From: Sulfurimicrobium lacus
Lineage (GTDB): Bacteria; Pseudomonadota; Gammaproteobacteria; Burkholderiales; Sulfuricellaceae
Reading direction: 5' to 3'
DNA: 64,000 nt
NCBI RefSeq assembly: GCF_011764585.1
Contig: NZ_AP022853.1
Span: forward strand, 479,501-543,500
In this document: positions 19,801 through 22,313 of the stretch, piece after piece
Numbering within the stretch: the first letter of the stretch is position 1
How the letters are laid out: every line of letters begins with the position of its first letter
Program-made: the position numbers and the translations under genes
The notes under the pieces: model-generated
What the model was told of the DNA's origin: nothing
Database searches by the model: none
The model's input: the letters and a program-made list of their open reading frames with translations, nothing else

Positions 19801-19971
19801 TCAGCAGCAGCGTCTCACGCCGTTCCACTTGCGTTCCTGCTCGCGTTTGAAAAACGCCTTGCGGCTCAGTTCGGGTTCGCCGGGGTGGGCTGCGCTGTGA
19901 TGTGCGCGGTAGCGCTCGTAGGCGTCGTCGCCGCTCAGGCGGCGGATGGCGCACCAAATTTTATGTAACAT
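19801..19971 (-). CDS. ybdD: YbdD/YjiX family small protein
   Basis: The 56-residue protein from MLHKIWCAIRRLSGDDAYERY to KWNGVRRCC is a YbdD-family protein. The length, the central Tyr/His region, the FFKREQERKWNG block and the terminal RCC match. In other bacteria ybdD follows cstA directly and is thought to work with it in pyruvate or peptide uptake. Here a 266-bp palindromic element lies between them, ending 3 bp before this ATG, and no ribosome site precedes it. The frame is open into the element, so an N-terminal extension from MSKLFINEPC is possible. Confidence 0.88.
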   Translation of the reverse strand: MLHKIWCAIRRLSGDDAYERYRAHHSAAHPGEPELSRKAFFKREQERKWNGVRRCC

Positions 19972-19974
19972 GCA

Positions 19975-20240
19975 GGGCTCGTTAATGAATAACTTGGACA
20001 TACGCTGGGGCCGTTTTGGGCACAGGCCAAGGCGCGAGACGCGCGGTTGTGTCATTCACAACAAGTGGCTCGCAACGCGGGCATGCGGCCAAAACGGCCC
20101 CAGCCCGAAGGGTTGTTGTGTATTCGGGCGTCTGCGGCGTTGCGAGACTTGGCAATGGAATAACCATTGCCCGCGTCTCGCGCCTTGCATCCATCCCGAA
20201 TACACAGCAACGTATGTCCAAGTTATTCATTAACGAGCCC
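19975..20240. mobile_element. 266-bp palindromic MITE/REPIN-like element between cstA and ybdD
   Basis: The ends are perfect 30-bp inverted repeats (19975-20004 and 20211-20240). Inside are two hairpins. Hairpin 1 has an outer stem 20005-20019 with 20089-20103 (15 bp) and an inner stem 20046-20051 with 20057-20062. Hairpin 2 has an outer stem 20113-20128 with 20195-20210 (one G-T) and an inner stem 20151-20158 with 20164-20171. The halves are inverted relatives: 16 identical bases (20028-20043 against 20172-20187) and 10 more (20069-20078 against 20137-20146). The outer and inner stem sequences differ between halves yet remain paired. There is no transposase and no obvious target duplication. 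It is probably non-autonomous, but mobility is inferred. Confidence 0.8.
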
Positions 20241-22313
20241 TTAGTCTCTCACCCAGTTTTCCACCAGCCGGCTCGGCTCGTGGGGGGATTCGGTCAGTGG
20301 CGGCACCGCTTTGCCGCGGAGATGGCCGGCGCACACACGCAGCATGTCGAAGATGATCACCCACAGCAAAACGACGAAGAACAGGGTGAGCCAGGCGTCC
20401 AGCTGCTGGTTGAATATCAGTTGCGGCGCAACGGCGGCTTTCTCCGGCGGCAATTTGCCCGCTGCGAGCTTGTCGGCGAGGTCGTTGGCGGCGGCGAAGA
20501 AACCGATGCGCACGTCGGGGCTGGTTACTTTTACCCAGGCCGCGGTGGTGGTGACTGTTGCCAGCCAGGCAAGGGGCGCCGCGCTGATCCAGGTGTATTT
20601 CAGCTTGCCGGACTTCACCAGGATGCCGGTGGCGACCGAGAGGGCGATCGCCGCGAGCATCTGGTTGGAGATGCCGAACAGCGGCCACAGGATGTTGACG
20701 CCGCCGTTGGGGTCGATCACGCCGATGTAGAGGAAGTAGCCCCAGGCCGCGACGATGATGGCGGAGGTGAGGATCACCGAAGGGTACCATGAGGTCTGGC
20801 CGAGGCGCGGCGAGAAGTTGCCGAGGAAGTCCTGCAGCATGAAGCGCCCGACGCGGGTGCCGGCATCCAGCGTGGTAAGAATGAACACGGCCTCGAACAT
20901 GATGGCGAAGTGGTACCACATCGCCAGCAAATTCTGGCCGAAGGCGCTGCCGAAAATGCTTGCCATGCCGACGGCCAGCGAGGGCGCCCCGCCGGTGCGG
21001 GCGAACAGGGTTTTTTCGCCCATTTCACGGGCCAGCGTTTCCATCTGCTCGACCGTGACGGGGAAGCCCCAGGAGGTGATCTTCGCCACCGCATCCGCCG
21101 CTTCCTTGCCGACTACGCCAGCCGGGCTGTTGATGGCGAAGAACACGCCGGGGTCGAGCACGCTGGCGGCGACCATGGCCATGATGGCGACGAAGGATTC
21201 GAGCAGCATGCCGCCGTAGCCGATCATGCGGATATCCTTCTCGTTGGCCAGCAGCTTGGGCGTGGTGCCGGACGCGATGAGGGAGTGAAAGCCGGACACC
21301 GCGCCGCAGGCGATGGTGATGAACACGAAGGGGAAAACGCGCCCGCCGAAAATCGGTCCGCTGCCGTCGATGAACTGGGTCACCGCGGGCATCTTGATTT
21401 CGGGCTGCATCACCACGATGGCGATGGCGAGCAACAGGATGGTACCCAGCTTCATGAAGGTGGAAAGATAGTCGCGCGGCGCGAGCAGCAGCCACACCGG
21501 CAGGATGGCGGCGGCGAAGCCGTAGGCGATCACCGCCCAGGCCAGGGTCAGGCCCTCGTGGTCGAACAGGGGACGCAGGCTCGGGTTATGGTCGATCCAG
21601 CCGCCGCCCGCCACCGCCAGCAGCAGCAGTGCCAGGCCGAGCAGAGAGCCTTCCAGCACCCGCCCGGGGCGGATGTCGCGCATGTACAGGCCGACCAGCA
21701 CGGCGATGGGGATGGTGGCGGCGATGGTCGAAGTGGCCCACGGGCTGTGCTTCATGGCGTTGACCACCACCAGTCCGAGCACGGCGATGAGGATCACCAT
21801 GATCATCAGCGTGCCGATCAGGGCGGCGATGCCGCCGATCGGGCCGAGTTCGTCGCGCGCCATCTGGCCCAGGCTCCTGCCGTTGCGCCGGGTGGAGAAA
21901 AACATGATGGTCATGTCCTGCACGCAGCCGCCGAGCACCGCGCCGATCAAAATCCATAATGTGCCCGGCAGATAGCCGAACTGCGCCGCCAGGGTCGGGC
22001 CGATCAGCGGGCCGGGGCCGGCGATGGCGGCGAAGTGGTGGCCGAACACGATCCATTTGTTGGTGGGGATGAAGTCGCGCCCGTCATTGAAACGCTCGGC
22101 AGGGGTGGCGCGGGTTTCATCCAGCACCAGCACGCGGGCGGCAATCCAGGCTGCATAAAAACGGTAGGCCAGGGCAAAAACACAGGCTGCTGCAGTGATC
22201 AGCCAGATGGCGTTGATCGACTCGCCGCGGCTGAGGGCGATGCCGCCCAGTGCCGATGCGCCGAGCACGGCGACGGCAAGCCACCATAGTGACTGCATGG
22301 GGTTTTTGAGCAT
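20241..22313 (-). CDS. cstA: Carbon starvation protein A (CstA) family transporter
   Basis: A 690-residue inner-membrane protein with about 16-18 hydrophobic segments, collinear with CstA. Family motifs include NKWIVFGHHFAAIAGPGPLIGP near residue 85 (written here as a region), GGCVQDMTIMFFSTRRNGRS and SGFHSLIASGTTPKLLANE. CstA/BtsT proteins import pyruvate or peptides under carbon limitation. The last codons and stop abut the palindromic element. Its final GGTGAGAG would have served as a ribosome site for ybdD if the element were absent. Confidence 0.97.
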   Translation of the reverse strand: MLKNPMQSLWWLAVAVLGASALGGIALSRGESINAIWLITAAACVFALAYRFYAAWIAARVLVLDETRATPAERFNDGRDFIPTNKWIVFGHHFAAIAGPGPLIGPTLAAQFGYLPGTLWILIGAVLGGCVQDMTIMFFSTRRNGRSLGQMARDELGPIGGIAALIGTLMIMVILIAVLGLVVVNAMKHSPWATSTIAATIPIAVLVGLYMRDIRPGRVLEGSLLGLALLLLAVAGGGWIDHNPSLRPLFDHEGLTLAWAVIAYGFAAAILPVWLLLAPRDYLSTFMKLGTILLLAIAIVVMQPEIKMPAVTQFIDGSGPIFGGRVFPFVFITIACGAVSGFHSLIASGTTPKLLANEKDIRMIGYGGMLLESFVAIMAMVAASVLDPGVFFAINSPAGVVGKEAADAVAKITSWGFPVTVEQMETLAREMGEKTLFARTGGAPSLAVGMASIFGSAFGQNLLAMWYHFAIMFEAVFILTTLDAGTRVGRFMLQDFLGNFSPRLGQTSWYPSVILTSAIIVAAWGYFLYIGVIDPNGGVNILWPLFGISNQMLAAIALSVATGILVKSGKLKYTWISAAPLAWLATVTTTAAWVKVTSPDVRIGFFAAANDLADKLAAGKLPPEKAAVAPQLIFNQQLDAWLTLFFVVLLWVIIFDMLRVCAGHLRGKAVPPLTESPHEPSRLVENWVRD

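Follow-up and report, generated by a model that had tools for sequence, protein, structure and literature searches.

The window analysed here is a stretch of 64,000 nucleotides from the genome of Sulfurimicrobium lacus (contig NZ_AP022853.1). It contains cstA and a small gene downstream of it, which we take to be ybdD/yjiX-like, and the two genes are separated by an element of 266 bp, the order being the cstA stop codon, the element, 3 nt, and the ATG of the small partner gene (Table 1). The initial annotation had described at this place a 266-bp element with a terminal repeat, an exact 16-base core and a 10-base block, all of which were found as described. It had also read the element as two inverted halves; the mirrored arrangement was confirmed, but the halves proved to be two separate mirrored arms, and this plan recurs with the same core under other terminal repeats.

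Table 1. Features of the 266-bp element and its flanking genes, in window coordinates
Feature	Coordinates	Strand	Remarks
Small gene after cstA	19801..19971	-	Pfam Sel_put PF04328, E 1e-16; ATG 3 nt beyond the element
Mobile element of family F1 (T-shaped, non-autonomous, 266 bp)	19975..20240	.	
Left terminal inverted repeat, 29 bp	19975..20003	+	fully paired with the right repeat in the window copy
Left arm	20004..20104	+	outer stem 20004-20019 / 20089-20104; inner hairpin within
Left-arm conserved core, 16 nt	20028..20043	+	
Left-arm loop TCATT	20052-20056		
Left-arm second conserved block	20069..20078	+	CTCGCAACGC; read directly from the sequence
Linker joining the arms	20105..20111	.	mini-hairpin of CCCGAAGGG type
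Right arm, mirrored	20112..20211	-	outer stem 20112-20128 / 20195-20211; inner hairpin
Right-arm second conserved block	20137..20146	-	read directly from the sequence
Right-arm loop AATAA	20159-20163		TTATT on the - strand
Right-arm conserved core, 16 nt	20172..20187	-	
Right terminal inverted repeat	20212..20240	-	
cstA	20241..22313	-	Pfam CstA, E 1e-251; stop TAA at 20243-20241, immediately next to the element
Candidate Shine-Dalgarno sequence	20246..20254	-	GGGTGAGAG; end of cstA, by eye; separated by the element from the downstream ATG

An inverted-repeat search recovered the terminal repeat over 34 nt (19974-20007 / 20208-20241, 97%), the core (16 nt, 100%), the left-arm stem (20004-20028 / 20080-20104, 88%) and the outer stem of the right arm (94%). 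When folded as RNA, the element reached -174 kcal/mol as compared with a mean of -94 for shuffled sequences (z -15.6), and none of 200 shuffles was as low. A known structured RNA was rejected, as a search of Rfam 15 up to E 1 yielded nothing that overlaps the element; the only match at five sister loci was a sub-threshold miRNA hit (L024) lying outside the element. The open reading frames contained in the element are approximately 80-86 aa long, and a coding function is unlikely because lengths other than 266 bp (264-268) occur in 9 of 37 copies and break the reading frames. The element carries no transposase gene.

The expectation that further copies exist was borne out. The S. lacus genome contains six full 266-bp copies, which are 88-100% identical, and two partial core matches, and among relatives a match was found in 28 of 61 genomes, S. 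lacus included. A search of genome contigs with the end pattern returned 23 stretches; stretches with F1 ends came from Sulfurimicrobium, Sulfuricella, other Sulfuricellaceae, a Sideroxydans MAG, a Sulfurisoma MAG, Nitrosomonas halophila, and further MAGs. From these sources, 37 distinct full copies (6 from S. lacus and 31 from other loci) were aligned, and the same set was used for the analysis of gene context. Phage records gave no match, and plasmid records searched with the F1 ends gave two 18-nt chance matches only. No description of the element or its ends was found in the literature at the level of titles and abstracts, a scope that leaves most subscription papers and supplements outside.

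The edges of the copies indicated mobility. Exact 3-bp direct repeats of the form TWA were present at the edges of 19 of the 37 copies (13 TAA and 6 TTA), and a TA-only repeat (TTA...TAA) at those of a further 7, while 11 copies, including that of the window (GCA...TTA), had no direct repeat. The flanks of the two sides were non-independent (p 0.002, in an earlier hand tally that included length variants). At the window locus, an empty site was present in the four relatives read, as GACTGAAATG, GACTGACATG and, twice, GACTGATG. Of 7 further junctions searched, 5 likewise had an empty site, whereas the MFP-RND and oligopeptide-ABC junctions gave none. Elements of other lengths that share the ends included TIR-only palindromes, one-arm copies and insert-bearing copies, and matching TAA or TTA flanks were present in six of six TIR-only palindromes read. 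Near-bare terminal-repeat palindromes of 43-57 nt lie at L105 (1519-1570), L116 (5181-5237), L119 (7322-7364), L120 (4986-5028), L201 (from 2001), and L205 (from 501). At the pstC-pstA junction of one relative (L315, G001), GGGCCC stands between the stop and start codons, possibly the scar of an excised element. In summary, the element is real, mobile and structure-conserved, and by the features examined it is MITE-like: it is short and multicopy, has terminal inverted repeats, target-site duplication and empty sites, and is devoid of a transposase gene.

The partial matches in the S. lacus genome turned out to be complete T-shaped elements with other terminal repeats, and the same was true of weak matches in Azotobacter, P. 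aeruginosa plasmids, and other genomes. A covariance model of the right arm had matches (E 1e-4) in 57 of the 398 genomes sampled from the phylum, S. lacus included, and at 45 places in S. lacus itself (E 0.01), 30 of which were roughly delimited and 15 left without delimitation. End families, named by eye, run from F1 (the window) to F7; F1 to F5 are present in S. lacus, F5 consists of a single arm, the ends of F1 and F6 resemble each other, and L023/L024 and L033 have yet other ends. At least seven clearly different terminal repeats thus enclose the two-arm plan. In 75 partly overlapping non-F1 sources, the arm model identified 114 arms, 93 of them distinct. The arm pairs within one element are mirrored, with the + strand on the left and the - strand on the right, and their usual separation is about 25 nt. 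At L115 (1609-1707, - strand), a hairpin resembling an arm has A/T-rich stems but similar core blocks and is perhaps a further arm type. At L203 (about 1666-1806), an F6 arm is interrupted by an insert that by eye resembles a CGTC-tagged REP pair, a repeat nested in a repeat.

The initial annotation had suggested looking for a transposase or RAYT gene with matching ends. A RAYT link was not supported, the right-arm model giving no match around the RAYT genes examined, and the link that emerged was of IS5 type, in a sister family only. This family, F7, occurs on a P. aeruginosa plasmid, in Azotobacter and in Halomonas, and its ends match those of IS5-family insertion sequences at 19-20 of 20 nt. 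An 862-bp insertion sequence on an Aeromonas plasmid has F7-like ends (19 of 20 nt) and carries a PF01609 / NF033580 transposase. In Azotobacter, an insertion sequence with F7 ends (20 of 20 nt) is interrupted by another transposase gene, and the same strain has an F7 T-shaped element on a different plasmid; insertion sequences of a further genome (G041) have ends similar to F7. With the F1 ends at up to 2 mismatches, no insertion sequence was found among the matches listed in 100 relatives, neither a second F1 end nor an insertion sequence was present in 20 single-end stretches drawn from those matches, and no F1 ends were seen beside PF01609 genes among the matches listed in 8 genomes. Since the F1 ends were absent from any insertion sequence found, the DDE/IS5 assignment of F1 is drawn by analogy with its sister family. 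An autonomous F1 element was sought at single ends in L098, L119, L122, and other stretches, where no second end was found, and none of the open reading frames of L119, L122, and L196 was recognisable by eye as a transposase. Two leads near IS5-type genes were set aside as weak, one being an F4-like end (E 5, second end not found) and the other a group of F5-like ends that deviate at as many as 4 of 20 positions.

Covariation was computed on a structure-blind alignment of the 37 copies with the structure of the window copy. The results showed that 96.7% of the alignment cells were paired and that both sides had changed in 40 of 107 pairs, as compared with 22.4 in shuffles, none of 500 shuffles reaching 40. 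The covariation score was 0.203 versus 0.095, and at most 0.049 when slid. For arms compared across families, both sides had changed in 8 of 18 pairs, with a score of 0.363 versus 0.139. The observation that the stems of the two halves differ in sequence and still pair extends to the copies, among which the stem differences are largely compensatory, and the proposal that the structure is maintained while only the core sequence is constrained holds both across the 37 F1 copies and across families.

Changes were next assigned by parsimony to a tree of the 37 copies, and double Watson-Crick changes were compared with single changes to G-T or A-C, changes to other mismatches being excluded from the ratios. 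The ratio of double to single changes was 35:21 in the terminal repeat, 19:19 in the left outer stem and 8:16 in the right outer stem, as against 8:30 in the left and 10:22 in the right inner hairpin; the contrast between terminal repeat plus outer stems and inner hairpins was significant (p 4e-4). The two sides of the terminal repeat, and less clearly those of the outer stems, tend to change on the same branch of the tree, and single changes in these parts showed no strand bias (27 G-T and 29 A-C). Such same-branch changes in the terminal repeat may reflect hairpin-templated correction rather than selection. After removal of three nearly constant, doubtful right-arm pairs, the inner hairpins, each read in its own orientation, showed 41 G-T against 11 A-C changes (p 4e-5); the left hairpin gave 25:5 (p 0.0003), and the right hairpin 16:6 (p 0.05), which is borderline alone. 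The 93 distinct arms of other families contained 68 G-T and 35 A-C cells, 24 of the latter at one doubtful pair without which the count was 66:11, in an alignment fitted to the model and so leaning toward G-T. A strand-dependent tolerance of wobble pairs, as selection on a folded single strand would produce, is confined to the inner hairpins, each of which seems to work in that form. The two hairpins are apparently selected on opposite strands, a demand that a single RNA could not meet for both arms, so that DNA is the favoured, though not proven, form under selection.

The genes at the junctions included, besides cstA, two BPD permeases (read as pstC-pstA), a DHH/DHHA1 protein (recJ), NAD kinase with a RecN-type protein, two oligopeptide ABC ATPases, and an outer-membrane efflux protein. 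The junction set of S. lacus comprised 17 F1-F4 elements with delimited ends, excluding F5 one-arm loci, duplicates and the odd locus L181. With genes chosen by GC3, F2-F4 edges set by hand, and observed and expected numbers counted by different procedures, a stop codon stood at the edge of 10 of these 17 elements (L001, L002, L003, L006, L178, L179, L183, L184, L186, and L188), or of 11 when any open reading frame of 100 codons was counted, and the expectation from the TWA sites of the window was 26 of 161 (p 8e-5). Among the 31 F1 copies of other genomes there were 8 edge stops (p 0.12 with one expectation and 0.04 with the other). The preference for stop codons is thus clear only in the S. 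lacus genome and elsewhere is not clearly above expectation. A start codon followed the element within 9 nt in 6 of the 17 S. lacus elements (p 4e-4; the window, L002, L003, L005, L175, and L183, several assigned by eye and L005 without homologue support) and in 11 of the 37 F1 copies (4 of 6 in S. lacus and 7 of 31 elsewhere), as compared with 13 of 205 sites (p 1e-5).

In relatives, the nadK-recN (L325, L332, and L336) and nif-like (L331) junctions hold inserts with no relation to the element, 93 nt (palindrome-like) and 220 nt long. As these are stop/start junctions at which elements lie in S. lacus, they would appear to be recurrent landing sites, or they may simply be tolerant. At the nadK-recN junction of another relative (L324, G007), a 12-nt AGGGCTCGTAAA identical to the F1 end lies where S. 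lacus has an F4 element, apparently the trace of a separate insertion there that was later deleted.

The window copy likely splits the ribosome-binding site between cstA and its small partner gene. A Shine-Dalgarno-like stretch before the element and an ATG after it were found at five loci (the window, pstC-pstA, recJ, MFP-RND, and nif-like), and without the element the spacing between the two would read 8, 12, 8, 8, and 7 nt, respectively. In genes 25 and 38 of phage T4, a structure between the Shine-Dalgarno sequence and the AUG restores their spacing; there the distances are 22 and 27 nt, and the effect was tested (PMC3014915). Here a 266-nt mobile element would take that place. A rejoining of the split site by the terminal stem is opposed by the mismatches of that stem, which in transcript orientation in 19 junction copies comprised 7 G-T, 10 A-C, and 3 others, so that RNA polarity is absent and there is no sign that the terminal stem is selected in the mRNA, and by the unrelated inserts at the nadK-recN and nif-like junctions. 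The F5 elements at L167, L168, L030, and L031 end in AGG directly before a putative ATG start (TAGG|ATG or CAGG|ATG), so placed that the repeat might provide a portion of the ribosome-binding site.

Taken together, these results make it probable that the element is a MITE-type transposon that depends on a DDE transposase acting in trans, carries a two-arm module of conserved fold and persists at gene junctions. The transposase would recognise the terminal repeats, as judged from end identity in the sister family only, and would duplicate a TWA (or TA) target. Between the ends lies the two-arm module with its conserved fold. Pairing in the element would be kept in two ways: concerted exchange between the two sides, presumably template switching within a hairpin, could maintain it in the terminal repeat and to some extent in the outer stems, and selection on the folded single strand could maintain it in the inner hairpins, each on the strand running inward from its own end. 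The use of opposite strands would favour single-stranded DNA, formed during transposition or replication, over RNA. Copies would persist at the stop and start codons of operons, where a duplicated TAA, or TTA followed by the first G of the element (TAG), could regenerate the stop codon, and at a split ribosome-binding site the terminal stem would return the two halves to near-normal spacing.

A bolder form of this proposal, which we regard as somewhat unlikely, makes the two-arm hairpin module itself the unit of selection, riding in the terminal repeats of many transposons across the Pseudomonadota, acting through mirrored single-stranded DNA hairpins in transposition, and tolerated in split ribosome-binding sites because the terminal stem topologically loops it out of the mRNA. 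At the other extreme, the element could be an ordinary MITE with ends conserved for an IS5-type transposase and a stable but functionless palindromic filler, in which covariation stems solely from hairpin-templated correction. The excess of same-branch double changes over single wobble or A-C changes in the terminal repeat, free of strand bias, is what such correction would leave, and TIR-only palindromes with matching flanks exist; this account is nevertheless unlikely, as the inner hairpins retain unpaired positions, change mostly via wobble pairs and show mirrored strand polarity, and as the same arm motif lies under so many different terminal repeats.

Two further explanations assign the arms another function. 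If the element acted in mRNA, in processing, protection or operon coupling, the arm transcribed first would be in working orientation either way, and mirrored arms would give orientation independence. Copies indeed lie inside operons directly after stop codons, and 77 of 86 arms fold better as RNA in their own orientation, a figure biased this way by the model-chosen orientation. We hold such a role to be quite unlikely, given the lack of polarity in the terminal stem, the lack of an Rfam match up to E 1, and the ten one-arm F5 loci, a small sample in which the arm ran antisense to both flanking genes at 5 loci and sense at 2, the other 3 being mixed or incomplete; the orientation of one-arm elements was accordingly rejected as evidence for RNA. 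Very improbable is the view that the arms are REP-type hairpins moved by RAYT, a Y1 transposase, with the terminal repeats secondary. The mirrored hairpin pair is as in REPINs, and RAYT genes were present in 14 of 16 element-carrying versus 5 of 11 element-free genomes (p 0.03, in hand-picked genomes). Against this weak correlation, a search of 22 RAYT loci, of which about 18 are distinct, with the right-arm model, which covers left-type arms less well, yielded nothing at E values up to 1, and mobilisation by RAYT was rejected; one genome without RAYT (G013) has three full copies, and edge direct repeats are not expected of a Y1 transposase.

Several known elements come near to the one described here. 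The bcr1 element of Bacillus cereus is likewise a mobile repeat with a conserved secondary structure, in another host group and with another structure. IS5-family MITEs are short, non-coding and multicopy, with terminal inverted repeats and target duplication, and F7 shares its ends with an insertion sequence; the present element differs in that its interior was not seen as a remnant of an insertion sequence in an unsystematic look, and in its single structured two-arm module under different terminal repeats with mirrored strand-polar hairpins. ERIC, Correia and the Coxiella QMITE are covered in PMC10969869. They are palindromic MITEs whose transcripts fold stably, some of them at gene 3' ends, whereas here one T-shaped plan with compensatory change is found in many families with different ends. 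REPs and REPINs with RAYT (GTAG and CGTC REPs) share the two inverted hairpins and the location at gene ends (PMC3733652). Their tagged hairpins measure 20-40 bp; the arms of about 100 nt, the long terminal repeats, the edge direct repeats and the absence of arms beside the RAYT genes examined set the present element apart, in agreement with the initial statement that its layout is unlike standard REPs.

With arm matches in 57 of the 398 sampled genomes, these elements provide a large natural set of DNA sequences with covariation of the kind known from structured RNA, and the strand polarity of their hairpins allows hairpin-templated correction to be separated from selection. The junction copies, in turn, are experiments set up by nature on the question whether a bacterial ribosome can initiate when 266 nt of structured sequence separate the Shine-Dalgarno sequence from the AUG.
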